Source: a virus
Direction: 5' to 3' (one strand)
Virus record (IMG/VR): IMGVR_UViG_3300015371_000058
Coordinates: 1 to 49,820 of that record
Length of the DNA stretch: 49,820 nucleotides
Positions 16,116-32,802 of the stretch are shown in pieces. Position 1 is the first letter of the stretch. The number at the start of each line of letters is the position of its first letter. The position numbers and the translations under genes are program-made. Below the pieces are notes generated by a model. That model was given only the letters and a program-made list of their open reading frames with translations, ran no database searches and was not told where the DNA came from.

Positions 16116-16377
16116 GGATCCAACGAATAGCATTTACGACGACGACGCTCCCGTTGTAGATTGGACCGCGGTTCACCTCTGGATCGACATATACGCCCAC
16201 GAGCACTATGACGAGGACGGCTGGGACTTCTACGTCGAGTGCTGGGACGTGGCACAGCTGATGGACTTCTGCAACACGATGTGTCCGTCCGCTACGGATC
16301 CCGTGGAGATCAGAAAGGTCGTCGGCCGTTCACTCAAAATCCAGGATGAGTACAGACGTGCCATTAGAAATGCGTGA
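16105..16377 (+). CDS. Small acidic protein, unknown (90 aa)
   Basis: A 90-aa protein starting at ATG 16105 and overlapping the upstream gene by 11 nt; ATG 16099 would add two residues. The N-terminus is acidic (SNEDPTNSIYDDDAPVVDW), followed by an aromatic helical core (VHLWIDIYAHEHYDEDGWDF) and a basic C-terminal helix. No recognised motif. The DP-x-x sequence at its start comes from a GGATCC site, as in the next gene. Confidence 0.68.
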   Translation: MSNEDPTNSIYDDDAPVVDWTAVHLWIDIYAHEHYDEDGWDFYVECWDVAQLMDFCNTMCPSATDPVEIRKVVGRSLKIQDEYRRAIRNA

Positions 16378-16663
16378 GGATCCAACGAAGGATCCAACGA
16401 AGGATCCAACGAAGGATCCAACGAGAGAGGAATGGAGCCGACTGCTATTCGGCTCCTTCTCCCTTGATACCGTTAAACGCTGTATCACAGATCCAACATG
16501 GCAGCGGGTCCGCATCTCCCTGCTCTACAGCTCTCAACGTGATAAGCTGGAACGTCTGGAATCCTACATCGCACAGGCGCCGGACGAAAACACACTGTGG
16601 ACACGTAAGGTCCAAGTCACCAACTACGTCAACGCGCTTAAGCGAGGAGGTCTAATCAAGTGA
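16370..16663 (+). CDS. Protein with DPTK repeat N-terminus (97 aa)
   Basis: I place the start at ATG 16370, giving the common 8-nt overlap; ATG 16346 is an alternative. After MRE the sequence repeats Asp-Pro-Thr-Lys four times (last unit DPTR), coded by a perfect 12-bp tandem repeat. The remaining 75 residues form a helical domain (WSRLLFGSFSLDTVKRC, DKLERLESYIAQ) that looks like a genuine fold. The repeat may have expanded by slippage and may vary in length between isolates. Function is unknown. Confidence 0.68.
   Translation: MREDPTKDPTKDPTKDPTREEWSRLLFGSFSLDTVKRCITDPTWQRVRISLLYSSQRDKLERLESYIAQAPDENTLWTRKVQVTNYVNALKRGGLIK
16378..16425 (+). repeat. 12-bp coding tandem repeat (4 copies)
   Basis: GGATCCAACGAA occurs four times without gaps (the last copy ends GAG). 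Each unit holds a BamHI site and codes DPTK/DPTR. Adjacent units also read as a shortened form of the paired-GATC motif. Confidence 0.97.
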
Positions 16664-18207: not shown

Positions 18208-18873
18208 ATGCCAAAAGCAGTCGTGCTCCTGTCAGGTGGGATGGATTCCGCCACCACGCTGGCAGTAGCACTACAGGACTTCCCGGACGTTGAAACCGTC
18301 AGTATCGATTACAACCAGCGCCACCTGCGCGAACTTACGTCCGCCAAGGATGTCGCTGAGTTCTTCTCTGTCCGCCACACCATTGTCGACCTCAGCTTGG
18401 CTGATATCTTCAAAGGGGCTTCGTCCAGTCAAACCGACGCGGCAATCGAAGTCCCCGAAGGCCACTACGCTGATGAGTCGATGAAGACCACAGTCGTTCC
18501 TAACCGAAACATGGTCCTGCTCAGCATCGCGGGAGCGGTTGCAATCAGCCGCGGAGCTGAGTTCCTGTACTACGGCGCACACGCCGGTGATCACGCAATC
18601 TACCCAGACTGCAGACCTCAGTTCGCGCAGGCGATGGCGAAAGCATTCCTCCTGTGCGATTGGAAGCAGCTGCACCTGCTGACTCCGTTCATGAACAAGA
18701 CGAAGGCGGACATCGTCACTATCGGAGCCCAGCTCAACGTTCCGTTTGGCCTCACATACAGCTGTTACAAAGGAGAGCTACTCACCCACTGCGGCAAGTG
18801 CGGGACTTGCGTCGAGCGTCGCGAAGCCTTCATCGAGGCAGGCATCCCAGACCCGACAATGTACGAGGAATAG
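18208..18873 (+). CDS. queC: 7-cyano-7-deazaguanine (preQ0) synthase QueC
   Basis: A 221-aa protein of normal QueC length. The N-terminal ATP-PPi loop is SGGMDS (residues 9-14). A zinc site lies near the C-terminus in CYKGELLTHCGKCGTC (Cys-x8-Cys-x2-Cys-x2-Cys). QueC converts 7-carboxy-7-deazaguanine to preQ0 with ATP and ammonia. No glutamine amidotransferase domain is fused, so there is no sign of the Gat-QueC form linked to deoxyarchaeosine in other phages. Start ATG 18208 follows GGAGGG. It lies apart from queD-queE-folE (24.4-26.3 kb) but completes their pathway. Confidence 0.95.
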   Translation: MPKAVVLLSGGMDSATTLAVALQDFPDVETVSIDYNQRHLRELTSAKDVAEFFSVRHTIVDLSLADIFKGASSSQTDAAIEVPEGHYADESMKTTVVPNRNMVLLSIAGAVAISRGAEFLYYGAHAGDHAIYPDCRPQFAQAMAKAFLLCDWKQLHLLTPFMNKTKADIVTIGAQLNVPFGLTYSCYKGELLTHCGKCGTCVERREAFIEAGIPDPTMYEE

Positions 18874-18938
18874 CTTCGGATCCATCACTCTGTGAAGTGA
18901 AGGATCATCATCGACCGATCCAAACAAAGGAGTTCAGC

Positions 18939-19145
18939 ATGTACCGTCTCAAGAACATCAAGACCCAAGCCTGGGGCCACTCAATGTACATCCGTCGTGA
19001 CCGCAAGTCGGTCTTGAAATTCTGTGCCAAGCTCGCGGAAGAGCAGGGCATTAGCCTCTCAAGGTTTCTGACGAACCTTGCGGAGGACTTCCTCGACGGG
19101 AACCTGCAGTACAAGCGCTCGCTTCTCCAAGGGAGGAAGAGGTGA
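18939..19145 (+). CDS. Small protein, possible ribbon-helix-helix (68 aa)
   Basis: ATG 18939 follows AAAGGAG at 7 nt. The 68-aa basic product has a beta-like start (MYRLKNIKTQAWGHSMYIR), then two helices split by a turn (SVLKFCAKLAEEQGISLSRF), the layout of MetJ/Arc-type ribbon-helix-helix regulators. The match is by pattern only. It overlaps the next gene by 4 nt and could control the queC region or the downstream run. The gap before it (18874-18938) has GGATCCATCAC and AAGGATCATC, a split form of the paired-GATC motif. Confidence 0.68.
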   Translation: MYRLKNIKTQAWGHSMYIRRDRKSVLKFCAKLAEEQGISLSRFLTNLAEDFLDGNLQYKRSLLQGRKR

Positions 19146-19426
19146 CAACCAAGTACGTTGTGAAGAAGCAAAAGACCAACGGGAGCGGGGAAAAGTTCTA
19201 CAAGCAAATCGGTACCGTGGTCATCAACGAAGGGGAAGGGACCGGTGTCCTGTACCTCGACATGTTCGACGGGAACTTCCGACTGTTCACTGACGAGTAC
19301 TACGACAATCAGGTCCGAGAAAAGGAGACACAGCATGGCGAAGAAGAAGTCGAAGAAGCGTCCAGCACTGCCAAGAAAGCGGGGCGTTCACGTCATCGAC
19401 AACCACACGACACCACGGGAGTTTGA
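19142..19426 (+). CDS. Small beta-rich protein with run-on tail (94 aa)
   Basis: GTG 19142 overlaps the upstream stop and follows GGGAGG. The first 60 residues are a coherent beta-rich domain (TKYVVKKQKTNGSGEKFYKQ, GVLYLDMFDGNFRLF). The last 30 residues (Glu-rich, then Lys/Arg/His/Thr) lie within the next gene in another frame and look less domain-like. The domain resembles many small phage proteins of unknown function with an OB- or SH3-like strand order. Overlap with the next gene is 92 nt. Confidence 0.68.
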   Translation: MTTKYVVKKQKTNGSGEKFYKQIGTVVINEGEGTGVLYLDMFDGNFRLFTDEYYDNQVREKETQHGEEEVEEASSTAKKAGRSRHRQPHDTTGV

Positions 19427-19472
19427 GTCTGCCAGGGCAGACCTGGTCAGCTTCCTGACGAAGCGTTTGTAA
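19335..19472 (+). CDS. Small basic protein nested in upstream 3' end (45 aa)
   Basis: ATG 19335 has AAAGGAG at 7 nt. The 45-aa product is strongly basic at its N-terminus (MAKKKSKKRPALPRKRG) and ends in a helix (ARADLVSFLTKRL). Two thirds of it overlap the upstream gene in the +1 frame. Its stop overlaps the next ATG (TAATG, 19470-19474), which supports real translation. Basic tails of this kind often bind nucleic acid. Confidence 0.65.
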   Translation: MAKKKSKKRPALPRKRGVHVIDNHTTPREFESARADLVSFLTKRL

Positions 19473-20284
19473 TGATCATCCTCACCTGGTGGGAAGTGGA
19501 AGAATTGACCGATCACTTCCTGGGGCGTCCTGACATCTGGACCTGGGATGAAGCCTCGAAGTGTTGGCTTCGCACAGACAGTGAAGGGACGCCCTTACTG
19601 GGTCTCCGTATCCTCGGCCCGAACGCTCCAGGTCCGTACCGGAAGTTCAAACTGGCCTGGATTCCCGTCACCTGGCTTGATGAGCTCTGTACGCAATACA
19701 TCACGCAGCTCGTCACGAGATGGACCTCCTACGGATTCCGCATCGCAGTGCAGGAGCTTCTTACAACGGACGATGGGATCAAGATGGATCCCCGTCTAGC
19801 TGAGGCTGTAGCTGTGGCAATCAGTAAGATCGAACAAGAGCCCGCTCCTGACCCAGAGAAGCTCTCAATCCCTACACAGGGCGAGCTGTGGCCAGACCTC
19901 AGCGGAGTCAGGCTCGAACCATACACCATGGAGCGGACAATCCGCACCGTCGGGCTAGTCGGCGGCGGTTGGCTCTCCATCCGGTACCAAGGTGAGATGC
20001 TTCGAATCCGCCTTAGCATCCCCTCAATAGACTACGGCGGGGGCTACGATCACCCGTTCGAAGGATACATCCGTCCGAGGCACGGTAACATTCCACTCAC
20101 AATCGCTTCACTTATGGGAGTCGAAACGCATGTCCGACAAACCAACAGCGTACCAGAAGCAGCAACGGAACGAGGAGACCAACGAGAACTATACGGATCT
20201 AGCGAACTGCCTGAAGAGGGCAGCGCTGATCTCCGAGGAGGGGAACTTCCAGCGCAGGATGGCTCTGGCGAAGACCAGGGCTGA
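19472..20284 (+). CDS. Unknown protein with run-on C-terminus (270 aa)
   Basis: A 270-aa protein starting at ATG 19472 (TAATG overlap). Residues 1-215 look like one globular protein, Trp-rich at the start (MIILTWWEVEELTDHFLG), with a strand-rich C-terminal half (TVGLVGGGWLSIRYQGEMLR). From about residue 220 onward the sequence is Glu/Gly/Ser-rich and coincides with the first 155 nt of the next gene in another frame. No catalytic motif is visible. Start and codon bias are sound, so the gene is real; whether the tail matters is open. Confidence 0.72.
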   Translation: MIILTWWEVEELTDHFLGRPDIWTWDEASKCWLRTDSEGTPLLGLRILGPNAPGPYRKFKLAWIPVTWLDELCTQYITQLVTRWTSYGFRIAVQELLTTDDGIKMDPRLAEAVAVAISKIEQEPAPDPEKLSIPTQGELWPDLSGVRLEPYTMERTIRTVGLVGGGWLSIRYQGEMLRIRLSIPSIDYGGGYDHPFEGYIRPRHGNIPLTIASLMGVETHVRQTNSVPEAATERGDQRELYGSSELPEEGSADLRGGELPAQDGSGEDQG

Positions 20285-20354
20285 GGAATCCCAGCTCTGG
20301 TTCAACGCGGCAATGAACGGCGTCGAAACGTTCGATGAGGACGACAATGGCTAG
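20130..20354 (+). CDS. Small helical protein, unknown (74 aa)
   Basis: ATG 20130 follows GGGAG at 9 nt. The 74-aa product is polar and helical (KPTAYQKQQRNEETNENYTD, then DLANCLKRAALISEEGNFQR), and ends in an acidic tail. It starts 155 nt inside the upstream gene in the +1 frame and overlaps the next gene by 8 nt. The helical, charge-balanced sequence looks like the functional frame here, rather than the upstream tail. Confidence 0.68.
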   Translation: MSDKPTAYQKQQRNEETNENYTDLANCLKRAALISEEGNFQRRMALAKTRAEESQLWFNAAMNGVETFDEDDNG

Positions 20355-20550
20355 AGCAAAACTCGTTCTCAAGTTCATCTCTCCGCCGCCGAACGCTAAC
20401 AATGAGCAGGTGCTGGAATTCGCAATCATCGACTCAACGACAATCGGCGATCTTCAGCAGCTGCTCGCGTTTGAGATGCTCTTCAACCGCATGTGTGTCG
20501 GACGCCTGCACGCGTCCGTGGAGAACATCAAAGAGGCCAAGGATGCATAG
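20347..20550 (+). CDS. Small alpha/beta protein, unknown (67 aa)
   Basis: ATG 20347 lies within an 8-nt overlap with the upstream gene; the same 8-nt overlap links it to the nuclease gene downstream. The 67-aa product has an initial strand (ARAKLVLKFISPPPN), a second strand (EQVLEFAIIDS) and a helix (IGDLQQLLAFEMLFNRM). No metal or active-site motif is visible. Its tight coupling to the Cas4/RecB-like nuclease hints at a helper role, but that is only context. Confidence 0.68.
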   Translation: MARAKLVLKFISPPPNANNEQVLEFAIIDSTTIGDLQQLLAFEMLFNRMCVGRLHASVENIKEAKDA

Positions 20551-21634
20551 CTTCGCGGTGGAGATCGGTGAAGAGCTGATTCCCTTCGAACAGGTACTAG
20601 ACTACCTGTCCACGAACATGAACCAGTCTCGCGTTCAGTTCTTTCTGGACTGTAAGCGCAAATACTGGTGGCAGTTCGAACTCAACCTGGTCCCGGACCG
20701 CCCCCGCTGGGCCCTTGAGGACGGCAAAGCGTTCCACGAAGGCATGGCAGTCCTTGCCGCAACGGAGGATCTGGAGAAAAGCGTCACAGCGGCCAAATCC
20801 ACCCTCCGGGACGGCATGCCGAAGCAGAAGCTCGTCTACGATGAACTCGAACTGCGGGAACACGTCGAGCTCGTCGAACACCTGGTTCGTGCTTACTACG
20901 CCGAGTACAACGGGAAAGTGCTGTACAAACCTCTCGGCGTCGAATGCAGCGGCCGCGTGGAAGTCGGTGAAGGATCTGGTGTCTTCCTCGTCTTCCGTAC
21001 GGACCGCCTTGCGAACTGGGCAAACCGCATCTGGATCGTGGATCACAAAACCGCAGCCAAGCTGGACATGCGGGACGTGATGAAGTACGAGATGGACCTC
21101 CAGTTCACCGCCTACACCTACGGAGTCTCCAAGATCCTCGGGCAACGCGTGGCTGGTGTCATCCTGGATCTCATCACGAAAGCCCAGACGACGAAGTTCC
21201 ATCAACAGCCCTTCGTCCGCAGTGACGACGAACTCCTGGACTTCGAAGGCGAATTTGTCGAGATCGTCAGGGAAATCGCCTGGCGTCGAGCTCGCGTCCG
21301 CGCTGGTGAAGATCCGAAGACCGTCTGGTACAAGAACACCAAAGAGTGCTTCCGCTACGGTACCTGCCCCTACAGGGATCTGTGCCTGAGCGATAGCCCC
21401 GTTAAACGCGCCCTGTTCATGAAGCGAGATACAGACTATGTCGACGACGCTGACCGGGAAGGAAGAAGGGGAAGAATCGATCCTGAAGCTATTAACACTG
21501 CTCATCAGGGACTTGTGCAAGACGGAAGCGGAGCTCCAGGTCCAGAAATACCGGGGACCGCACCTTCCGACAGTTCGGCAGCTGGAGCAGAAGTCCCTGG
21601 AACTGCAGCACCAGCTGACGGAGACGTTCGGTGA
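20543..21634 (+). CDS. PD-(D/E)XK exonuclease, Cas4/RecB-like with Fe-S cysteines
   Basis: The start is ATG 20543 (8-nt overlap); a longer frame opens upstream but lies inside the previous gene. The 363-aa product has the RecB/Cas4 nuclease set: His65 in FHEGM, Asp153 in FRTDRL, Asp167-His-Lys169-Thr (DHKT), and Gln187-x3-Tyr191. Cys37 (DCKRKYWW) and Cys269, Cys275, Cys281 (CFRYGTCPYRDLC) match the four ligands of a Cas4/AddB-type 4Fe-4S cluster. It probably resects DNA ends for the Sak4-like recombinase nearby. The last 65 residues are Gly/Pro/Ala-rich and overlap the next gene by 197 nt. Confidence 0.87.
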   Translation: MHSFAVEIGEELIPFEQVLDYLSTNMNQSRVQFFLDCKRKYWWQFELNLVPDRPRWALEDGKAFHEGMAVLAATEDLEKSVTAAKSTLRDGMPKQKLVYDELELREHVELVEHLVRAYYAEYNGKVLYKPLGVECSGRVEVGEGSGVFLVFRTDRLANWANRIWIVDHKTAAKLDMRDVMKYEMDLQFTAYTYGVSKILGQRVAGVILDLITKAQTTKFHQQPFVRSDDELLDFEGEFVEIVREIAWRRARVRAGEDPKTVWYKNTKECFRYGTCPYRDLCLSDSPVKRALFMKRDTDYVDDADREGRRGRIDPEAINTAHQGLVQDGSGAPGPEIPGTAPSDSSAAGAEVPGTAAPADGDVR

Positions 21635-21734
21635 AGTTCTCGGGCTCGGAAACACTAAGGCTGCTCCCGGGGAGGATCCTGGTCTCAAAAGCACCACGGA
21701 TGGAACGACACGGCCAGCTGATCCTCCCGCCTAG
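21438..21734 (+). CDS. Small coiled-coil-type protein (98 aa)
   Basis: ATG 21438 lies 197 nt inside the nuclease gene, in the +1 frame, with a weak GAAGCGAG ribosome site. Residues 10-70 form charged helices (ESILKLLTLLIRDLCKTEAE, then VRQLEQKSLELQHQLTETF) with heptad-like spacing, far more protein-like than the overlapping nuclease tail. The final 25 residues are again low-complexity and overlap the next gene. It may act with the nuclease or depend on its translation. A programmed frameshift from the nuclease cannot be excluded. Confidence 0.62.
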   Translation: MSTTLTGKEEGEESILKLLTLLIRDLCKTEAELQVQKYRGPHLPTVRQLEQKSLELQHQLTETFGEVLGLGNTKAAPGEDPGLKSTTDGTTRPADPPA

Positions 21735-21936
21735 CGCCTGGAAGCTTGCACAGCGGGCATTCTGCCATGTGCATGAACAGACTGTCAGCTTCGGTGAGGA
21801 CCTTACGAACCAGTGGATCCTCGTCGACAAGTATGCTGGCAGTCCCCTGACGTTGGGAGGCACAACGTTCTGGGTAATGACACAATGGGCATGCCTCGCC
21901 CTGTTGGAAGAAGGAGAACAGTACTATGATGCGTGA
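21700..21936 (+). CDS. Small protein, unknown; start uncertain (78 aa)
   Basis: The frame is well defined by its aromatic core (LILPPSAWKLAQRAFCHVHE, then TFWVMTQWACLALLEEGEQ) and by a good ribosome site linking it to the next gene. Its start is not. ATG 21700 has no close site, whereas CTG 21679 lies 4 nt after GGAGG, and GTG 21631 is also in frame. It overlaps the upstream gene in the +1 frame. It has two Cys but no metal spacing. Function is unknown. Confidence 0.6.
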   Translation: MERHGQLILPPSAWKLAQRAFCHVHEQTVSFGEDLTNQWILVDKYAGSPLTLGGTTFWVMTQWACLALLEEGEQYYDA

Positions 21937-22150
21937 CCGTCTCATCGAAGTCGTCGGGGACATCATCAAGGACCAGGTCAAGGAGAACCGCGAGCTGGAG
22001 CAGGCGGAGATCGACTCCATCAGCGAAGCGCTCGGCGACTCCGACGGTGTCATTCAGGAACTGATCGACGACGAGGACAACGCGGAAGAGAAGAACAACG
22101 ACGAGGAAGCGGAGCAGGAACTTGTCCCCGAGCCCGACAAGGAGCGGTGA
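21926..22150 (+). CDS. Small acidic helical protein (74 aa)
   Basis: ATG 21926 (with a second ATG at 21929) follows AAGGAG at 9 nt. The 74-aa product starts as a helix (RDRLIEVVGDIIKDQVKENR) and becomes strongly acidic (DDEDNAEEKNNDEEAEQELV). Acidic tails of this kind are typical of phage SSB or DNA-mimic partners. It lies just before the recombinase/SSB group, so an interaction there is possible but not shown. It overlaps both neighbours by short stretches. Confidence 0.68.
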   Translation: MMRDRLIEVVGDIIKDQVKENRELEQAEIDSISEALGDSDGVIQELIDDEDNAEEKNNDEEAEQELVPEPDKER

Positions 22151-22346
22151 GAAGTTCACAGTCCCTGTCGATCTGTACGACGATCAGGGACGGCACTGGG
22201 GTCAGATTCGACTGGTGCAGTACGGCCAGTCGACTCTGCTCCAGGTCTGTGTTGACGCCGATCAGCACGGTTGGCAGGATTTTCAGGCGTTCGTCATCAC
22301 TGACGACGTGCTGAAATTCGGCGTCATTGGTAAACGACCCAAGTAA
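22122..22346 (+). CDS. Small beta-rich protein, TTG start (74 aa)
   Basis: The only start in frame is TTG 22122, with GGAG at 7 nt, lying 29 nt inside the upstream gene. The 74-aa product is mostly beta (KFTVPVDLYDDQGRHWGQIR, then STLLQVCVDADQHGW). The stop lies 10 nt before the recombinase ATG. Rare start use and compact strands suggest low expression. I do not recognise the family. Confidence 0.6.
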   Translation: MSPSPTRSGEKFTVPVDLYDDQGRHWGQIRLVQYGQSTLLQVCVDADQHGWQDFQAFVITDDVLKFGVIGKRPK

Positions 22347-22356
22347 AGGACATGGC

Positions 22357-23154
22357 ATGCCGCCAGGAAAACTACCAGAACTGAGACGCACTTCGGACAA
22401 CAGGAACGAGTACGCTGCTGTCCTGCTCTATGCCCCCGCACGTTGGGGCAAGACGAACATCATCCGTACTTGTCCCAAGCCGATCGTTCTCGCCACAGAA
22501 CTCGGGAGAACGCGTGGTCTGCAAACCTTGATGGACATTGACGTCCCCTTTATCGAATGCCCGGATATTGACACACTGCACATGGCAGTCGCCGAGCTCG
22601 GTAGAGTTCCGAACAAGGTCCAATATCAAGGTGAAGAGTTCATGACTGTTGTGCTGGACTCCCTATCAGCCACAGGTGAACTCTGGCTCGAAGGTGCAAA
22701 GCAGATCCACGGGTGGGATATGATCTGGGACGCTGGTGATGGGCCGAGGGGGATTGCACGTAAGGATCCCCGTCAAGCATACCCTTACGTAGCGGAGAAG
22801 GGTCGCCAGACCGCAAAGATCATCATGGCATTGCCTGCAAACACCTTGTTCATCGCACGTGAGCAGGTTGTTGAAGAGGGCCAGGGGAAAGAAAAGATCA
22901 CCTTCTGGGCACCTGAGCTTCCCGGACAGAAGCTCCCTCGCGAACTTCCAGGGTGGCCGGATGCTACACTTCGTGGTGTGTGGCAGAACGGTAAGAGGAA
23001 AGTCTGCACGGTAACAATCGCAAGAACCGTTGCAGGCTTTCGCGTTCCTCCCAAGTTCAACGTACCTCAGTACTTGAACCCGGACATGGGAGCGATTTTC
23101 CAGCTCACCACTGGGAAGAAAGAGGCTCTGGAGATCCTCACCCGTAAAGAGTGA
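22357..23154 (+). CDS. Sak4-like RecA-fold ATPase (phage recombinase, AAA_24 type)
   Basis: ATG 22357 follows AAAGGA at 6 nt. The 265-aa product has a Walker A APARWGKT (residues 26-33) and a Walker B TVVLD (97-101) followed by Ser-Leu-Ser-Ala, the arrangement of AAA_24/Sak4 proteins, a short RecA-like single-strand annealing family. The regions after it (AREQVVEEGQGKEKITF) fit the family. Next to an SSB-like protein and close to a Cas4/RecB-like nuclease, it probably anneals strands in phage recombination or recombination-dependent replication. The stop overlaps the next GTG (GTGA). Confidence 0.82.
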   Translation: MPPGKLPELRRTSDNRNEYAAVLLYAPARWGKTNIIRTCPKPIVLATELGRTRGLQTLMDIDVPFIECPDIDTLHMAVAELGRVPNKVQYQGEEFMTVVLDSLSATGELWLEGAKQIHGWDMIWDAGDGPRGIARKDPRQAYPYVAEKGRQTAKIIMALPANTLFIAREQVVEEGQGKEKITFWAPELPGQKLPRELPGWPDATLRGVWQNGKRKVCTVTIARTVAGFRVPPKFNVPQYLNPDMGAIFQLTTGKKEALEILTRKE

Positions 23155-23279
23155 GGCTCCTTGTCCTGTTGTTCCTGGCCCTGTGCCTGTTCTTCTTCGC
23201 GATGGCACCAGGGCCCTTTCTGATCTTGGCCGTGATAACCATGGTCATCTTCAACGAGTACGATCGGAGGAAGCTGTGA
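23151..23279 (+). CDS. Tiny two-span membrane protein (42 aa)
   Basis: GTG 23151 overlaps the recombinase stop, and the TGA at 23277 overlaps the SSB-like start, so it is coupled on both sides. The 42-aa product is two hydrophobic helices (LLVLLFLALCLFFFAMA, then FLILAVITMVIF) split by a Pro-Gly-Pro turn, with a charged end (NEYDRRKL). A membrane protein between recombinase and SSB is unexpected. It might be a holin or a factor placing replication at the membrane. It is too short for most gene callers. Confidence 0.68.
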   Translation: MRLLVLLFLALCLFFFAMAPGPFLILAVITMVIFNEYDRRKL

Positions 23280-23752
23280 GATTCGAAAAGTACAAGCAGT
23301 CCGACATGGCTGCGGATAACACCGTTCCGGAAGCCACGTACAAGCTCCGTTGCAACAAGGTGACGTTCAAGGAGCCGCAGGAGGACGGCAAGACCTGCGA
23401 CGTGGCCGGTGAGACCGAAGCGGGCATCCCGACCTTCGTCAACAAGAAGGGCGAGACCGTGTTTCCGTACCTGTCCCTTGACTGGGTCATCCAGGACGAC
23501 GGAGAGACGTTCGGCCGCCACGTGTTCGACAACTACGTCAGCCTGGCACCCGGGGATGACTGGAAGGTCCGCCAGATCATGAAGTCCCTGGAGTTCAGCG
23601 AGGACGACGCGTTCGACACCGACGAGTGGATCGATCGTGAGTGCTTCGGTGTCGTGACGAAGCAGAAGGAAGGGAAAGGTAAGGACGGCAAGTGGTACCC
23701 GGCTCAGAACAGGGTCGGGCGCTACATGGGCCTGAACGAGACGCAGAAGTAA
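23276..23752 (+). CDS. Single-stranded DNA-binding-like protein (158 aa)
   Basis: GTG 23276 follows GGAGG at 5 nt. The 158-aa product has an OB-fold-like strand order (YKLRCNKVTFKEP, FPYLSLDWVIQDD, FGRHVFDNYVSL) and an acidic segment (FSEDDAFDTDEWIDREC), and resembles DUF669/SSB-type phage proteins coded next to Sak4. Third codon positions are strongly G/C, which suggests abundant expression, as needed for an SSB. It would coat single strands and aid the adjacent recombinase. It lacks the classical SSB acidic C-terminal tip. Confidence 0.7.
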   Translation: MRFEKYKQSDMAADNTVPEATYKLRCNKVTFKEPQEDGKTCDVAGETEAGIPTFVNKKGETVFPYLSLDWVIQDDGETFGRHVFDNYVSLAPGDDWKVRQIMKSLEFSEDDAFDTDEWIDRECFGVVTKQKEGKGKDGKWYPAQNRVGRYMGLNETQK

Positions 23753-23763
23753 CGCTTCACGGG

Positions 23764-23787
23764 GAGGCTGGATCCTAGTCCAGCCTC
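23764..23787 (+). terminator. Hairpin after the SSB-like gene
   Basis: A 9-bp stem (GAGGCTGGA / TCCAGCCTC) with loop TCCTAG, 12 nt after the stop, followed by T/C-rich sequence but no T-run. It may be a partial terminator or an RNA 3'-end stabiliser. Confidence 0.55.
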
Positions 23788-23811
23788 TCTGTGTCTCTTC
23801 AGGAGGATCCC

Positions 23812-24180
23812 ATGATCGAACATGAATCCGGCGCAAAGCGGAGCAAGCGGATGCCCCGCTACGATCTCATTCCTCAGTCTGGACTAGTCAGACTAGCAGA
23901 CCGCTACCAGCTCGGTTTGGAGTGTTACACAGAGTTCAACTGGAAACTCGGTCTGCCTTTCGATGACACGTTCAACCACATCCTGGCGCACCTTCAGGAG
24001 TACAAGGAGCGCCGCAAACGGCTGATCCAGTTCGCACTGGAAACCAAGCGGGACATGTACGCTCCCGGTGAACTCGTCGAGAAGATGAGAGAGCTGGAAA
24101 CAGACGGAGACGACCTCGCAGCTGCCGCCTGGGGCATTTTCGCTCTCATGGAACTTGAGGAGCAAGGACGGATTGTATGA
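23812..24180 (+). CDS. MazZ/DUF5664-like (d)NTP pyrophosphohydrolase (122 aa)
   Basis: ATG 23812 follows AGGAGG. The 122-aa product matches the dATP/dGTP diphosphohydrolase N-terminal (DUF5664) pattern: RYDLIPQSGLVRLADRYQLG, then an Asn-Trp-x2-Gly segment (FNWKLGLPFDD), a helix with HILAHLQEY and a C-terminal DDLAAAAWGIFALMELEE. Members, including MazZ of Z-genome phages, cut (d)GTP-type nucleotides to monophosphates. Lying just before the preQ0 genes, it may reshape the guanine nucleotide pool. The usual metal-binding Glu/His set is only partly visible, so activity is inferred. The stop overlaps the next ATG (ATGA). Confidence 0.7.
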   Translation: MIEHESGAKRSKRMPRYDLIPQSGLVRLADRYQLGLECYTEFNWKLGLPFDDTFNHILAHLQEYKERRKRLIQFALETKRDMYAPGELVEKMRELETDGDDLAAAAWGIFALMELEEQGRIV

Positions 24181-24389
24181 CTGAGCAGTTCTTCTGTGAA
24201 CGGCGAGGGGTTAAGTTCATCCTCACCGTCCAGACCACCTCTGGCGACGCCCACTCAATCCTCACGGATGTCGGCCGCGAGTGTGTACGACGGCTCATCG
24301 ACTCCAAGCTCGAGGGCATGGCTGTCAAGTTCCTGGCGGACTTGGGCGCCGTGCATGAACCGAAAGGACCAGATGCTCCTCACCTTTAA
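24177..24389 (+). CDS. Small protein between pyrophosphohydrolase and queD (70 aa)
   Basis: A 70-aa protein coupled upstream by ATGA and overlapping queD by 17 nt. Two strands (MTEQFFCERRGVKFILTVQT) precede a helix (VGRECVRRLIDSKLEGMAVK). It carries two Cys without metal spacing. Its place inside the deazaguanine run suggests a linked role, yet no motif shows one. Confidence 0.68.
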   Translation: MTEQFFCERRGVKFILTVQTTSGDAHSILTDVGRECVRRLIDSKLEGMAVKFLADLGAVHEPKGPDAPHL

Positions 24390-24765
24390 CTACGAACTGC
24401 CGTTGGGTCACCGCCTCATGGAGCACCCGGGCAAGTGTAAGTACCTGCATGGCCACAACTACGTGATCGAGGTGGCCGTCGGCGGTAAGTTGGACCTGGT
24501 GACAGACATGTTGATGGACTTCTCCGATCTGAAGAAGACCGTCAAACAGTACTTCGATGAGTGGGATCACGGATTCGTCCTCCGAGTAGACGACCCCGCT
24601 GTGGAAGCGATCCGTCAGTACTCGAAGCTCATCACGATCCCGTCCCATCCCACAGCGGAGATGCTCTCCCTGATCTGGAGACAGGGCCTCCAGGCCCTGT
24701 TCCCTAACAATTCCGTTGGCATCCGGGTTCGCGAGACCCGAGACTGTGGGGCATTCCTTGTCTGA
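24373..24765 (+). CDS. queD: 6-carboxytetrahydropterin synthase QueD
   Basis: A 130-aa protein of normal QueD length. The zinc ligands are His13 (LGHR) and His26/His28 in LHGHNY. Catalytic Cys22 (KCKYLHGH) lies ahead of them. Later motifs are HPTAEMLS and the Glu in RVRETRDCGA. QueD converts dihydroneopterin triphosphate, the FolE product, to 6-carboxytetrahydropterin. Start ATG 24373 overlaps the upstream gene by 17 nt, and the stop overlaps queE by 8 nt, so the two enzymes are made together. Confidence 0.93.
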   Translation: MLLTFNYELPLGHRLMEHPGKCKYLHGHNYVIEVAVGGKLDLVTDMLMDFSDLKKTVKQYFDEWDHGFVLRVDDPAVEAIRQYSKLITIPSHPTAEMLSLIWRQGLQALFPNNSVGIRVRETRDCGAFLV

Positions 24766-25408
24766 CAAACGATACCCACTCGCGGAACGGTTCGTCGCTC
24801 CACAAGGCGAAGGATCCAGGACAGGGATTGTTACTGCCTTCGCCCGCTTTGTCGGCTGTAGCGTCGGCAAAAAGGTCTGCACGTTCTGTGACACAGACTT
24901 CGACGAAATCTACGAGCACCTGGACGGTGGGATGTACACCGCATTGGAGCTCGCCCACTGGGCTTACAATGTCCCAAACTTCTGCTTCACGGGTGGTGAA
25001 CCTCTCGACCGGGACCTGCGTCCACTGATCGAGATGCTCACCACACTCCGTGATGACGTTCAGATCGAAACAAGCGGTACGAAGCTCCCAGACTGGCTCC
25101 GTGATCCGGTTTGGCGTAAACGTATCTGGCTGACAGTGAGTCCAAAACCGGGCTACCTACACGAGATGCTCGGCATGGCGGATGAGATCAAGGTCATCCA
25201 CACAGGGCTGTCCGACGACCCAACGGGGTGGCCCACGCTGGCCGACGCAATCGAGTGGGCGCACAGAGGAAAGGCGGTGTACCTCCAAGCTCGCAACCTG
25301 AAGTTCGACATCGACAAGGACAACACGGAAGAAGTGACCCGGATCGTTATGGATCATCCGGTCCTTCGCGTCAGTGCCCAGATCCATAAATTCCTGAGGA
25401 CAAGATGA
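24758..25408 (+). CDS. queE: 7-carboxy-7-deazaguanine synthase QueE (radical SAM)
   Basis: The best start is TTG 24758 (8-nt overlap with queD, GGGG upstream), giving 216 aa; TTG 24716 is a longer option. The substrate-end motif APQGEGSRTG opens the protein. The iron-sulphur cysteines are Cys34, Cys41 and Cys44 (CSVGKKVCTFCDT), spaced x6/x2 rather than the usual radical-SAM x3/x2; QueE proteins are known to vary here. FTGGEPL and IETSGT are the SAM-binding motifs. It closes the ring of 6-carboxytetrahydropterin to form CDG. The stop overlaps the next ATG (ATGA). Confidence 0.93.
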   Translation: MSDKRYPLAERFVAPQGEGSRTGIVTAFARFVGCSVGKKVCTFCDTDFDEIYEHLDGGMYTALELAHWAYNVPNFCFTGGEPLDRDLRPLIEMLTTLRDDVQIETSGTKLPDWLRDPVWRKRIWLTVSPKPGYLHEMLGMADEIKVIHTGLSDDPTGWPTLADAIEWAHRGKAVYLQARNLKFDIDKDNTEEVTRIVMDHPVLRVSAQIHKFLRTR

Positions 25409-25818
25409 TCGAAGAAATCACAAAGTACCGTGTCCACGACCTGGTTGAACTCCGGCAGATCGCTGCCGATAACAACTGCGAGCTGTTCGTTTGCGGCAAG
25501 AACGAAATCGCGGTTGACATCGACACAGTGGAACAGGAAGCGCAGTTCGCTTCGATGCAGAGTCTCATCAAGGAGCAGTACCACATCGTCGCCACCAACT
25601 TTTGGGCGAGCCGGGGTGACGGTAAGCACTTCGTTCTGACGTTCGACAGAGACCTCGATCCGATGGAGCGGATCATCCTTCAATCCGTCCTGGGCTCCGA
25701 TCCCAAACGGGAGTTCCTCGCACTGTGGGAACTGTCCCAGGGCTTCGAAGAAAGCGTGCTGTTCAAGCCACTCCGTGATGAAGTACAACGAGAAAAAGGT
25801 CAAGGAAGCGATCACTAG
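25405..25818 (+). CDS. Conserved-type phage protein between queE and folE (137 aa)
   Basis: A 137-aa alpha/beta protein coupled to queE by ATGA. The C-terminal half carries KHFVLTFDRDLDPMERIILQ, then VLGSDPKREFLALWELS. Similar LQ-x3-GSDxKRE segments occur in phage proteins that I recall as unassigned, some near replication genes. A relation to primase-type folds is possible but unproven. There are no cofactor Cys clusters. Its position between queE and folE makes a helper in base modification equally possible. It overlaps folE by 41 nt. Confidence 0.7.
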   Translation: MIEEITKYRVHDLVELRQIAADNNCELFVCGKNEIAVDIDTVEQEAQFASMQSLIKEQYHIVATNFWASRGDGKHFVLTFDRDLDPMERIILQSVLGSDPKREFLALWELSQGFEESVLFKPLRDEVQREKGQGSDH

Positions 25819-26335
25819 CCTTCTCGAGGGTTTCGGCGTAGATCTGAAAGATCCACACTACGCCGAGACTCCCGACCGAGTAGCTAGGATGTACAAGGAA
25901 CTGTTCACACCGCCGGTGAACAATCTCAAGGCGTTCGAACTGCCTGTTGACGCTGCGAAGAGGGCTGGAATTGTCCTCCTCCGGAATCACCGGGCATTCG
26001 GCGTTTGTCCGCATCACCTTCTTCCGTTCGAGATGACTGCCTCTGTTGGCTACATCCCGAACCGGAAGGTGTTCGGTCTCTCCAAGCTCGCCAGAGCCGT
26101 AGAGAGCCAGCTCACAGCTCCAGTTCTCCAGGAAGAGCTGACACAGGCAATCGTTGACATGCTCGTCAACGAACTGGATCCAAAGGCAGCAGCCGCTGTG
26201 ATCGTAGGCGTTCACGGGTGCATGCGTTGCCGTGGTGTGAAGAGCACAGGTGATGTAGTCACCTCCAACATGTATGGACAGTTCCTCATGAACCCTGCGG
26301 CTCGTGAGGAGCTTTTCTCGTTGATCGGGAGATGA
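25778..26335 (+). CDS. folE: GTP cyclohydrolase I FolE
   Basis: ATG 25778 is preceded by an in-frame GTG (25775). The 185-aa product is of usual length for the catalytic core. Zinc ligands are Cys77 and His80 (GVCPHHLLPFEM) and Cys148 (VHGCMRCRG). The loop GYIPNRKVFGLSKLAR is diagnostic of type IA enzymes. FolE converts GTP to dihydroneopterin triphosphate, the first step towards preQ0. A phage copy bypasses host folate control. The ribosome site is weak and the start lies inside the upstream gene, so translation is probably coupled. Confidence 0.96.
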   Translation: MKYNEKKVKEAITSLLEGFGVDLKDPHYAETPDRVARMYKELFTPPVNNLKAFELPVDAAKRAGIVLLRNHRAFGVCPHHLLPFEMTASVGYIPNRKVFGLSKLARAVESQLTAPVLQEELTQAIVDMLVNELDPKAAAAVIVGVHGCMRCRGVKSTGDVVTSNMYGQFLMNPAAREELFSLIGR

Positions 26336-26658
26336 AGAAAGTACACGACATTGTCCGCATAATCGTTCCGGGAGCTAAAATAGCCCTGAACGTAGAAGAC
26401 GCGAAGGACAGGCACTTCCCCATTGCCTTCATCCAGTGGGGAAACAGGGACGACGGCTTCCAGTACGAGGTCGTCTGTCCCTTCTGCGCTAAGTCGATCG
26501 GTTGGGTGATCCCCGCGGGGCCAACAATCGGCGAAGCTGTACAGACCATGGCACCCGCTATGGCGACACACAAACCGCAATGTCCGCGGTTCGGTGAGAA
26601 GTTCGGCGTTGAGATTGCAACGGGGCCGATGGGAACGGAGAAACTCCCCATCATGTAG
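26332..26658 (+). CDS. Small zinc-binding-type protein (108 aa)
   Basis: ATG 26332 overlaps the folE stop (ATGA). The 108-aa product has a CPFC knuckle (VVCPFCAKSIGWVIPAG) near residue 50 and a His...Cys pair (THKPQCPRFG) about 30 residues later, consistent with one zinc site of CCHC type. Strands flank it (HFPIAFIQWGN). It sits between folE and the cold-shock gene. No enzymatic motif is present. Confidence 0.7.
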   Translation: MKKVHDIVRIIVPGAKIALNVEDAKDRHFPIAFIQWGNRDDGFQYEVVCPFCAKSIGWVIPAGPTIGEAVQTMAPAMATHKPQCPRFGEKFGVEIATGPMGTEKLPIM

Positions 26659-26667
26659 GAGGCGGCG

Positions 26668-26868
26668 ATGCGTGGGAAGATCAAGAACATCAACGACAAG
26701 CAGGGTTTTGGGTTCATCCGCGGCGACGACGGGAACGAATACTTCTTCCATCGCTCTGGGTGCCTCGATCCGTTCGAACAACTCGAAGTGGGTGACAAGG
26801 TTGACTTCGAAGACACTACCGCGAAGAAAGGCCTCCGCGCTGAGAACGTGGAGAAAATAAACGACTAA
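26668..26868 (+). CDS. Cold-shock domain protein (CspA-like)
   Basis: ATG 26668 follows AGGAGG. The 66-aa product is one complete cold-shock domain: MRGKIKNINDKQGFGFIRG supplies strand 1 and RNP1 (GFGFI), then EYFFHRSGC (RNP2-like FFH) and a C-terminal strand. Such proteins bind single-stranded nucleic acid and melt RNA structure. In a phage it may aid late translation or antitermination, or protect single strands during replication just before the polymerase gene. Family membership is clear; the phage role is inferred. Confidence 0.9.
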   Translation: MRGKIKNINDKQGFGFIRGDDGNEYFFHRSGCLDPFEQLEVGDKVDFEDTTAKKGLRAENVEKIND

Positions 26869-26890
26869 CGACGTTCCGAAGGGACCCGAA

Positions 26891-29296
26891 ATGTCCGATA
26901 TCTACACCTTCGGTTCCCTCCCCAACGGCAAAGCTGCCTGGTGCCAGGGTTGTCCTCTCTTCAACAACCCTGGCCCCGTTCCTGGGGAAGGACCGCCTAC
27001 TGCGAACATCGTCCTGTTAGGAGAAGCGCCTGGTGAAGACGAAGTTGCTCCTATTCGGAAAAACATGCCCGGAAGGCCTTTCATTGGCGGATCTGGAAGA
27101 ATTCTCAACAGGCAGCTTTATCAAGCGGGAATCTATCGATCCGACTGCTACGCGACTAACGTCGTCAAATGTCGTCCAACTGGAAACCGGACGCCAACAG
27201 ATGACGAAATCCGGCACTGCGCTCCCTTTCTTGCCAGAGAGCTGGGAGCGATTCGTCCAAACGTCGTCGTCGCTCTTGGAGCAACCGCCCTCTACGCCAC
27301 GACGGGTCGCAACGGTATTTATCAACAACGTGGAGTTCCGATTGAGGCACCCGTTGGTGATCGCGTCCAGAAAATCTTTGCGACGTTGCACCCAGCGCAC
27401 ATCATGCGTCAGCAGGAAAATTGGCCGCTTGTCATCTACGACCTCATCAGAGCGAAAGCCCAAAGCACCTTTGCCGAAGTCCGAAGGCTTCCGTGTAACT
27501 ATATTCTCGACGCAAGCCTCGCAGATTGTGGAGAGGGTCTTGCTCGGGCTGCTAGAGACACTGGAATACTCGACTTCGACATTGAAACACACGGATACGG
27601 ACCCCAAGGTGGTCTTGACCCTAAGACCAGTCAGATCGTCTGTATCGGCTTCGCGGTCAACGAAACAGACGCTTACTGTTTCCGTTGGACGCCTGCAGTT
27701 GCCGAGTGGTTCAATTCTCTGGCAACTGATCCAAAGATTGAAATCGAAGGTCAGAACATTGAAACCTTCGACATCCCCTTCTGCGAGGAGAAGGGCATCC
27801 AGTTCATAGGTCCGACTTGGGACACGCTCCAAGCGTTCCACTTGACAAATTCGGACCAGCCGAAGAACCTTGGTCACATCATGTCTCTTTACACAGACAT
27901 GGAGTACCACAAGAACACGGCGAAGGATAACCTCTTCCTCTACAACGCGAAGGACGTTCTCGGACAGAGGCGCAGCGCGGTTGAGCTCCGAAAGGAAATC
28001 AAAGAGTACGGGATGGAAGGACTCATGCACACCGTGTGCCAAGTTCAACCTGTCCTCCGGAAAATGTCCCGCCTTGGGTTGAAGCAGGACGAGATGCTCG
28101 CTGCCCGCTGGGAACTTGCGATGGACATGACAGCGCGGCAGTATGAGGAAAAGCTCCGCGCTGTGTTTGGTCCAATGTTCAACCCGAAGTCTTCCAAGGA
28201 TGTTCAAGACGTTCTGTACAACAAGCTTGGGCTCCCTGTCCAGTACGTTAAAGATGCAAAAACAAAACAGATGCGGCCGACGGCAAACGCCGCTGCGATT
28301 GAGAAACTCGCGGAGCTGTATGACGATCCAATCCTACAGCTGATCTCAAAGGTCCGCAGTTTGGATCACACCAAGGAAACCTATATCAACGTTCCGAAGG
28401 ATGAAGCGAACTTCGTTCATCCTCGGTTCGGTACAGCCAAAGCGGCTACAGGTCGTTTGAACTCGTGGGATCCTAACTTCCAGAACATTCCGTTGGAGCT
28501 GAGACAGCTCTACGTTCCTGACACCGAAGACCACTTCTTCATGTCCGCCGACTGGAACCAGGTGGAGACTTGGATCGGAATGGTCCTATCTGGCGACGAA
28601 GTCGGACTCAGCATCCTCGCCTCAGGTGAAGACTGGCTTGAGCGAATGGCTGCTGATGCGTACAAAGTCGCCATCGAGCTTGTCCGTAAAGGTGCACCTT
28701 CTGAACACCTTCGCTACATGGCCAAGTTCATCTGGTACGGGCTCACGTACGGTCGCGGAGCCGCTGACATTGCTAAGCAGACAAAACGTCCCAAGTCTGA
28801 GATTGAGACCTTTATAGCAAAGATCCTCAAGCTATTCCCAGATTGGAACGAATGGCGGGAATCCCTCCTTGCGGATGTAGAGAAGGACTCCTGCATCATC
28901 AACCCATTCATGCGCCGTCGTTGGTGGTTTACGCGCCAAGTGACGGAGATGTACAACTTTCCTGTCCAAAGCACCGGCGCGGACATGATGTATCACTGCC
29001 TGATCGATGTAGACAGGGATTTAGCACAACACTGCAACGGATCAACGATAAGAGTCAGCGTTCACGACGAACTCGTGCTCATGGTCGCCAGGGACGAGGC
29101 ACGACTGTCAAAGGAGATCCTGGAGGACAACATGTCCCGCAAGTGGCCGCAAGTATCAGAGCGGTCACGTAAGCCAGAAGTCACGCGGAAATACTTCCCG
29201 GACGGCTTCTTCGCCAAAGCGGACGCTACAGTTGGGCTAAACTGGATGGAATGCAAAAAAGGGAACAGTGAACTCCACAAGGAGCTCTTCGGATGA
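26891..29296 (+). CDS. Fused uracil-DNA glycosylase / 3'-5' exonuclease / family A DNA polymerase
   Basis: An 801-aa three-domain protein. Residues 1-195 are a family 4 uracil-DNA glycosylase: VPGEG, GEAPGEDE (44-51), HPAH (167-170), and Fe-S Cys18, Cys21, Cys94 (VVKCRPTGNRTP) and Cys110. Residues about 225-360 form a DEDDy exonuclease: DFDIETHG (228-235), NIETFD, and YNAKD with Tyr351 and Asp355. The polymerase follows: TGRLNSWDPNFQNIP, motif A Asp554 (SADWNQVE), O-helix Arg608, Lys612 and Tyr616, then motif C HDE (725-727). Tyr616 takes the place of E. coli Phe762. It is the replicative enzyme; SPO1-type phages also join UDG-like and PolA domains. The stop overlaps the next start (ATGA). 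Confidence 0.93.
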   Translation: MSDIYTFGSLPNGKAAWCQGCPLFNNPGPVPGEGPPTANIVLLGEAPGEDEVAPIRKNMPGRPFIGGSGRILNRQLYQAGIYRSDCYATNVVKCRPTGNRTPTDDEIRHCAPFLARELGAIRPNVVVALGATALYATTGRNGIYQQRGVPIEAPVGDRVQKIFATLHPAHIMRQQENWPLVIYDLIRAKAQSTFAEVRRLPCNYILDASLADCGEGLARAARDTGILDFDIETHGYGPQGGLDPKTSQIVCIGFAVNETDAYCFRWTPAVAEWFNSLATDPKIEIEGQNIETFDIPFCEEKGIQFIGPTWDTLQAFHLTNSDQPKNLGHIMSLYTDMEYHKNTAKDNLFLYNAKDVLGQRRSAVELRKEIKEYGMEGLMHTVCQVQPVLRKMSRLGLKQDEMLAARWELAMDMTARQYEEKLRAVFGPMFNPKSSKDVQDVLYNKLGLPVQYVKDAKTKQMRPTANAAAIEKLAELYDDPILQLISKVRSLDHTKETYINVPKDEANFVHPRFGTAKAATGRLNSWDPNFQNIPLELRQLYVPDTEDHFFMSADWNQVETWIGMVLSGDEVGLSILASGEDWLERMAADAYKVAIELVRKGAPSEHLRYMAKFIWYGLTYGRGAADIAKQTKRPKSEIETFIAKILKLFPDWNEWRESLLADVEKDSCIINPFMRRRWWFTRQVTEMYNFPVQSTGADMMYHCLIDVDRDLAQHCNGSTIRVSVHDELVLMVARDEARLSKEILEDNMSRKWPQVSERSRKPEVTRKYFPDGFFAKADATVGLNWMECKKGNSELHKELFG

Positions 29297-30030
29297 CCTA
29301 CATTCTGAGACATCACCTCGCCGACATTTACAGACACATGCTCTGGGCGCAGTATCCAGATGAGATACTTGCCCAGCACCTGGATCCTGGAGAACTGATA
29401 CACCGGATCCAAGAATTGGAGACACAGAGTGAAGCTCTCGATGGAAATTCCCACAGCCCTGCTCCAGAAGATGTCGGAGCTAGTGGATCTGGACTTCGTC
29501 CTTGCACAGTTAGTCCTGGAGGATCCAGCCTACGCGGAGTTCTTCCGGAAGTCGAGCAGGTTCAAGATCATGGACAACGGCTTCCACGAACGGGGGGAGC
29601 CACTCTCCCTGACGGAACTGCAGGAGGCAGCGACGCTCTGCAATCCGGGGGTAGTGATAGCCCCGGACTGGCTGGGCGACGCGCAGAAGACTTACGAGGG
29701 ATTCAAAGCGGCCAAGGAAAAATTCGCTGGACGCTGGCGCTTGGGCACTGTTCTTCAGGGGAAAGACAGAGAGGAACGTATATCGTTCTTCAACGCGGTG
29801 CGGTCCGATACACACTTGTTATGCCTTCCGTTCAGGTCCGAGAGATACAACCATTTCTCCGAGCTTGTCGAAGCTACGCCGAAACACATCAGGTGGCCTC
29901 CGCGTATCCATCTCCTTGGAATGAAATCGCTGCAGGAGACCCAGCTCTTCTCGACCTTGTTCGACGATCTTGGGATCTCGCACCGGACATCGATCGACAC
30001 TGGGAAGTTGATCAAGTTCGGCTTGGCTAA
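29293..30030 (+). CDS. Small helical protein with a very long run-on over dpdA (245 codons)
   Basis: ATG 29293 is coupled to the polymerase stop (ATGA). The first 45 residues are a convincing helical sequence (LADIYRHMLWAQYPDEILAQ). From about residue 46 onward the frame lies inside dpdA and codes Gly/Ser/Pro/Gln-rich, domain-poor sequence for 200 codons before its stop at 30030. Overlap with dpdA is 602 nt, the longest in the genome. The short N-terminal peptide is probably the functional part; the tail may be tolerated read-through of an open frame, or overprinted coding. Proteomics would be needed to know. Confidence 0.5.
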   Translation: MTYILRHHLADIYRHMLWAQYPDEILAQHLDPGELIHRIQELETQSEALDGNSHSPAPEDVGASGSGLRPCTVSPGGSSLRGVLPEVEQVQDHGQRLPRTGGATLPDGTAGGSDALQSGGSDSPGLAGRRAEDLRGIQSGQGKIRWTLALGHCSSGERQRGTYIVLQRGAVRYTLVMPSVQVREIQPFLRACRSYAETHQVASAYPSPWNEIAAGDPALLDLVRRSWDLAPDIDRHWEVDQVRLG

Positions 30031-30157
30031 CGAGTGCATTGATGAGTTCACTGCACTTCGCGGACGTGGGATGCTGGATCACAGCATTGCAAGTTTCACG
30101 GCGGAGCAATTCGCCAACACGTTCTACAACGTTGCCTTTGCACGGAAATACATGTAG
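29429..30157 (+). CDS. dpdA: DpdA-type 7-deazaguanine DNA transglycosylase
   Basis: GTG 29429 has GGAGA at 6 nt. The 242-aa product has marks of short phage DpdA, DNA-acting relatives of tRNA-guanine transglycosylase: Asp49-Asn-Gly (IMDNGFHERGEPLS), a Pro-Asp-Trp-Leu-Gly-Asp motif at 79-84 followed by Thr88, HLLG (161-164), and a C-terminal SIDTGK with Asp190. TGT uses Asp residues in equivalent places for base exchange and recognition. It should swap guanine in DNA for preQ0 made by FolE, QueD, QueE and QueC of this genome. It lies directly after the polymerase, suiting modification during replication. Identification rests on motifs and pathway context. Confidence 0.82.
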   Translation: MKLSMEIPTALLQKMSELVDLDFVLAQLVLEDPAYAEFFRKSSRFKIMDNGFHERGEPLSLTELQEAATLCNPGVVIAPDWLGDAQKTYEGFKAAKEKFAGRWRLGTVLQGKDREERISFFNAVRSDTHLLCLPFRSERYNHFSELVEATPKHIRWPPRIHLLGMKSLQETQLFSTLFDDLGISHRTSIDTGKLIKFGLANECIDEFTALRGRGMLDHSIASFTAEQFANTFYNVAFARKYM

Positions 30158-32296: not shown

Positions 32297-32802
32297 TGGG
32301 GGGCCCTATTCCGTGGAGCAGCCGTTGTTGCAGTTGGATTGCCAGCGTCGATCCTCAAGTTTTTCGGAGCCGCCGGCATTGGCTGACTATCAACGACTCC
32401 TAAACCGAAAGGGAGACTACCCGGCGATTCTTGAAGTGTGTTCAGATCTCCAGGTAAGCCGTAGTTCTGAACGGTTAGAATGATGGTGTAGTTTCCCCGC
32501 GGCTGTGGTGGAATCGCTGCGCTCCACTGCGTGAGTGTATCACCAAGAAATGGTCCACGTTCAATACGGACATTGTCGAGTTGGAATGTTCCCGCCGGTA
32601 GTCCCGCTATCTTGGCGCCAACCAAACTGTCCGAGGCGGGTTGACACCAATAGATCCGGAATGGAAGTCCCGAACGGACAGTTCCATTGTTGCTGCCTGG
32701 CGGACAATTTCCACTGATAGGAGCAGTCGGATTTGGCTGTATTCCCTGTGCGAACACGGAAACAGGGGACAGAAGGATGACTAACAATACCAAAGTTCTC
32801 AC
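32293..32802 (-). CDS. Secreted protein with signal peptide (169 aa)
   Basis: ATG 32802 overlaps the upstream stop (ATGA). The N-terminus is a classical Sec signal (MRTLVLLVILLSPVSVFAQG), with likely cleavage after Ala19. The 150-aa mature part has two Cys that could form a disulphide, beta strands (GNYTIILTVQNYGLPGD) in an Ig/Fn3-like pattern, and a Pro/Ala/Thr-rich tail. There is no lipobox, so it is not a typical spanin. A periplasmic or outer-surface role such as superinfection exclusion or lysis support is possible, without direct evidence. Confidence 0.75.
   Translation of the reverse strand: MRTLVLLVILLSPVSVFAQGIQPNPTAPISGNCPPGSNNGTVRSGLPFRIYWCQPASDSLVGAKIAGLPAGTFQLDNVRIERGPFLGDTLTQWSAAIPPQPRGNYTIILTVQNYGLPGDLNTLQESPGSLPFGLGVVDSQPMPAAPKNLRIDAGNPTATTAAPRNRAPQ

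Follow-up and report, generated by a model that had tools for sequence, protein, structure and literature searches.

A predicted preQ0 pathway and a putative DpdA-family DNA-guanine transglycosylase in an uncultured tailed phage

INTRODUCTION

The mycobacteriophage Rosebush and the Escherichia phage CAjan carry FolE, QueD, QueE, QueC and DpdA, and this gene set yields dPreQ0 at about 28% and 32% of G, respectively; deleting dpdA from CAjan abolishes both the modification and the resistance to restriction (PMC6884629). In the Campylobacter phages CP220 and CPt10, dADG is reported at 100% of dG (PMC8306585), and Hutinet et al. list Campylobacter phages with those in which no DpdA had been recognised.

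Here, we analyze a 49,820-base virus record (the window, by which we mean the whole stretch of DNA under study) that holds a system of a known kind in a DpdA branch not yet characterised. The analysis would extend DpdA-type guanine replacement to an uncultured phage clade with an enzyme that none of Pfam, NCBIfam and PADLOC detects.

RESULTS

The contig carries an exact 123-bp direct terminal repeat and closes to a circle of about 49.7 kb, from which we conclude that the genome is probably complete.

1 to 123, no strand: terminal direct repeat, left copy, exactly identical to 49698–49820
49698 to 49820, no strand: terminal direct repeat, right copy, exactly identical to 1–123

One relative (G005) also has identical ends, while another (G004, whose DpdA is 77% identical) has the same map in circularly permuted form. 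The terminase, portal, head and tail-collar genes found in the window indicate that the virus is a tailed phage, uncultured. A search of the phage collection returned no close relative of the window, and a host search of bacterial genomes with the window DpdA and major capsid protein found no relatives. The minus strand also encodes a 2057-aa protein (32799–38972) without a Pfam domain, probably a virion protein.

Family matches and motifs show a full set of preQ0 pathway genes within this one genome, with key residues kept. This bears out the sequence-only reading of the window, which had named the same four enzymes, and its coordinates hold.

18208 to 18873, plus strand: queC, 7-cyano-7-deazaguanine (preQ0) synthase, 221 aa, unfused to an amidotransferase (PF06508, TIGR00364, P-loop, zinc Cys motif)
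24373 to 24765, plus strand: queD, 6-carboxytetrahydropterin synthase (PF01242, phrog_2389, CxxxHGH motif)
24716 to 25408, plus strand: queE, 7-carboxy-7-deazaguanine synthase, a radical SAM enzyme (phrog_2076, TIGR04508)
25775 to 26335, plus strand: folE, GTP cyclohydrolase I (PF01227, NF006826)

Each of the four proteins has a match in both PHROGs and NCBIfam, and three exceed the Pfam gathering score. QueC matches PF06508 (E = 5e-63) and exceeds the TIGR00364 cut-off (188.8 versus 150.3 bits), keeps the P-loop SGGMDS and the zinc motif C-x8-CGKCGTC, and is closest to the QueC of Rosebush-like mycobacteriophages, at 49% identity. FolE matches PF01227 (E = 5e-43) and NF006826 (163.5 bits, cut-off 162) and has its CPHH and CMRC ligands. 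QueD matches PF01242 (E = 5e-24) and phrog_2389 (E = 5e-25) with the motif CKYLHGH, and QueE matches phrog_2076 (E = 5e-17) and TIGR04508 (E = 3e-18); both fall below their NCBIfam equivalog cut-offs (76.3 versus 89.25 bits for QueD) and are syntenic with the other pathway genes. The start codon of queE is uncertain (a TTG overlapping queD), and the enzyme's cluster motif, CSVGKKVCTFCD, has the unusual spacing CX6CX2C, not CX3CX2C, which recurs in 15 of 15 QueE rows of the window clade. Compared to a relative at 77% identity, the pathway genes have dN/dS values of 0.06 to 0.32, with dS near or beyond saturation, consistent with purifying selection.

We found no QueF in the window; the QueF-II model matches FolE only, and at 20.9 bits against a cut-off of 86.9 we rejected FolE as a hidden QueF and attribute the signal to its T-fold. 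Pfam scans of the window found no amidotransferase (GATase, Gat-QueC) and no ArcS-type match. The earlier claim that a QueF-type reductase and an amidotransferase-fused QueC are absent thus agrees with the Pfam scans and the QueF-II model and, because the genome is apparently closed, the absence carries meaning. Many early ORFs of the window have no known family, so that an unrecognised tailoring enzyme may be among them. The small orf137 (25405–25818), in the queE–folE interval, was considered for this role and dropped, since none of the loci and phage records retrieved yielded a homologue; in the relative L001, queE and folE nearly abut where the window has orf137.

The candidate for guanine exchange lies further downstream, and both its start (GTG in the window) and its length are common to relatives at 77% identity.

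29429 to 30157, plus strand: dpdA-like putative DNA-guanine transglycosylase, 242 aa, CP220 gp056 family (hhalign, tblastn, model, viral fold matches)

Pfam, NCBIfam and PADLOC give no match to its product, PHROGs gives only one without a name, and a single-sequence PDB search returned nothing. By tblastn, the product matches a Flavobacterium phage gene with a DpdA annotation and proteins of CP220-like Campylobacter phages (27% identity, E = 6e-10), the latter being the only chemically typed relatives found. We compared a profile of 39 relatives of the window DpdA with a profile of 13 phage DpdA1 proteins, and hhalign aligned the two with a probability of 93.6 (E = 2.1e-7). The window-clade profile alone still matched DpdA1 (E = 1.9e-6), in an alignment that reaches D190, while a reversal and 12 shuffles used as controls gave E values of 0.3–0.9. 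The protein carries the motifs DNG(49), PDWLGD(79), VLQG(108), HLLG(161) and SIDT(188); D49, D80, D84, H161 and D190 are in register with the Asp and His residues of the DpdA1 motifs DSGAF, LDxIGD, HGxG and SxDSSS, and E6, D49, N50, P79, D80, H161, G164, D190 and T191 are invariant across the 39 sequences. Escherichia coli TGT matches the window DpdA profile weakly and much more poorly than DpdA1 does, and the profile match to 7ui4, a DNA-guanine transglycosylase of solved structure, does not reach significance (E = 0.55). The three cysteines are scattered, and therefore the protein has no CXCX2C zinc site.

The AlphaFold model of the product is a confident barrel (pLDDT 95.5). In the viral structure library, its relevantly named significant matches are R9TGF0 of Vibrio phage nt-1, whose 464 aa equal the length of nt-1 DpdA2, and several queuine tRNA-ribosyltransferases; a fold search of the PDB with the same model returned generic, unrelated TIM barrels only. 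The dN/dS of dpdA is about 0.06 against L001, at saturated dS. The data supports a distant DpdA-family member and putative DNA-guanine transglycosylase, as had been proposed from its DNG and PDWLGD motifs, and the profile match (E = 2e-7, with failing controls) places the product inside the TGT/DpdA superfamily.

The genomic neighbourhood of this candidate includes two further genes, one on either side of the queD–queE–folE group.

23791 to 24180, plus strand: dATP/dGTP diphosphohydrolase N-terminal domain protein (PF18909, E = 2e-11)
26891 to 29296, plus strand: family-4 uracil-DNA glycosylase fused to the N-terminus of a family-A DNA polymerase (PF03167, E = 2e-30; PF00476, E = 6e-56)

Loci with a window-type DpdA hold at least one of the four preQ0 genes nearby in 69 of 79 cases and at least three in 58 of 79; those with none are mostly cut short by contig ends. 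The order queD, queE, folE, polA, dpdA, DUF3987, with queC upstream, is kept in independent relatives. Within the window clade, the order dGTPase-like gene, queD, queE, folE, polA, dpdA is conserved and DUF3987 usually comes next. The PF18909 gene lies directly upstream of queD in conserved synteny. Apart from the window, 11 rows of relatives have it, each belonging to the window clade, and almost no relatives of its protein were detected among named phages. The sequence-only reading had remarked on a split pathway with dpdA beside the polymerase; both are indeed present, but the position of dpdA is not distinctive, as dpdA also adjoins replication genes in CAjan and 9g.

In the tree of DpdA relatives, the window clade (12 rows, support 97/95, with one divergent row, L022, at its base) branches apart from the QueF-bearing clade, a large marine clade and CP220, and a long branch parts it from nearly all other relatives. 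Because of this long branch, chemistry may not transfer from relatives. Outside the window clade, QueC lacks the C-terminal zinc cysteine cluster in 43 of 44 rows of the marine clade (L027–L086; a few are truncated) and in 6 of 9 rows of the QueF clade, the P-loop being kept in both. The QueC proteins without zinc cysteines (marine clade and L088, the Flavobacterium phage immuto) may not be ordinary preQ0 synthases.

We also examined base composition. The window contains 69 GGATCC sites, compared to about 18 expected from a first-order model and 46 from a third-order model, an excess that is not diagnostic, and 449 GATC sites compared to 285 expected. In the ORF at 16346–16663, a 12-bp tandem repeat encodes KDPT units and places GGATCC sites at 12-bp spacing; the protein is otherwise without a known family. 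Palindrome avoidance proved uninformative as indirect evidence of modification and was set aside: 6-base palindromes are avoided in CAjan and CP220 too, both of them modified phages.

DISCUSSION

The explanation that we favour, and consider likely though short of assured, is that the phage's own preQ0 pathway and exchange by DpdA together place dPreQ0 in its DNA and protect it from restriction. PreQ0 would be made from GTP by the phage's FolE, QueD, QueE and QueC and, after replication, the compact DpdA-family DNA-guanine transglycosylase would swap guanines in the DNA for the free preQ0 base, with Asp190 as the likely nucleophile and with Asp49 and Asp80/84 in the pocket. The base in the DNA would most likely be preQ0, because no reductase or amidotransferase was found in the apparently closed genome and because QueC is a canonical preQ0 synthase. 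The modification would most likely protect against host restriction endonucleases. It is well supported that the phage's DNA carries a 7-deazaguanine, and very likely that this DNA is chemically disguised against host restriction enzymes.

As to which 7-deazaguanine, dPreQ0 is our best guess and dADG our second choice. The argument that a genome without QueF and amidotransferase should make dPreQ0, put forward in the sequence-only reading, holds for Rosebush and CAjan, which have the DpdA1 type, but is weakened by CP220, where a plain QueC accompanies dADG. The CP220 protein gp056 (NC_027997.1 54675–55451; L007:5001–5777), annotated as hypothetical, is homologous to the window DpdA; by this homology, it belongs to the DpdA family and is the candidate transglycosylase in a phage for which 100% dADG is reported. 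Because CP220 shares the DpdA family and the plain QueC, dPreQ0 is not forced in the window phage. The same system could therefore end in dADG, possibly at every guanine as in CP220 and CPt10 (dADG = 100% of dG in CP220; PMC8306585), if QueC stopped at the amide, if DpdA took ADG or if an unknown enzyme hydrated the nitrile. We regard this outcome as unlikely, though by no means negligible: the TIGR00364 score that places the window QueC above the preQ0 synthase cut-off is only 139.5 bits for the CP220 QueC, which falls below it; the window QueC keeps the GHYADES...VPNRN and HAGDHAIYPDCR segments common to Rosebush-like QueC, which the CP220 QueC partly lacks; and the DpdA clades of the window and CP220 are far apart. 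The resemblance to Rosebush-like QueC and the passing score, which the CP220 QueC fails to reach, are our reasons for ranking dPreQ0 first.

Two further explanations assign the genes a different task. They could raise the host's tRNA queuosine and leave the phage DNA unmodified, the 29429–30157 product then being an unrelated protein or one that acts on tRNA; host Q synthesis can be fed by the preQ0 genes alone, as has been proposed for phages without DpdA (PMC6884629). This reading is very unlikely in our judgement, as the profile of the product matches the DpdA1 profile much better than E. coli TGT, the protein has only 242 aa and no CXCX2C zinc site, and dozens of phages have both a protein of its type and the pathway. 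Replacement could alternatively take place at the nucleotide level, with the dATP/dGTP diphosphohydrolase-like protein depleting dGTP and the UDG-PolA fusion incorporating a deazaguanine triphosphate. The synteny of the PF18909 gene with queD in the window clade and the dedicated polymerase in the same operon would fit such a scheme; however, no phosphoribosyltransferase, deazaguanine kinase or ribonucleotide reductase is recognised in the genome, the genome does encode a DpdA whose catalytic residues are conserved, and the established precedent is exchange in DNA, which together make it extremely unlikely.

Returning to exchange by DpdA, guanine replacement in the window phage may be complete, rather than about 30%. 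A DpdA3 subfamily that allows complete replacement was reportedly defined in 2023, and the DpdA of CP220 presumably belongs to it. We know of no phage in which dPreQ0 replacement is complete. It is possible, but doubtful, that the uncultured phages of the window clade have a functionally distinct DpdA branch, one that converts all or nearly all guanines to dPreQ0. The window phage provides a clean comparison, with the same gene set and a different DpdA branch, and could show which of the two, DpdA clade or QueC, determines whether the product is dPreQ0 or dADG and whether replacement is partial or total.

Among the known systems, the Flavobacterium phage immuto cluster has a homologous DpdA (annotated as DNA guanine transglycosylase) together with FolE, QueD, QueE and QueC. 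Unlike the window, it also carries QueF and a formyltransferase-like gene, so that its base is probably preQ1-derived, and its QueC is without zinc cysteines. CP220 and CPt10 share a homologous DpdA (27%, E = 6e-10), its catalytic positions and a plain QueC with the window, and differ in carrying dADG at 100% of dG where we predict dPreQ0; CP220 is set apart by a long branch as a separate DpdA clade, its QueC is more divergent and its genome is large (178 kb). Rosebush and CAjan have, like the window, the four preQ0 genes with a plain QueC, a DpdA and neither QueF nor amidotransferase. They modify about 28–32% of G, their DpdA1 is linked to the window DpdA by profile comparison only (E = 2e-7), and the window departs from their arrangement in having queC apart from the other pathway genes and dpdA after polA.
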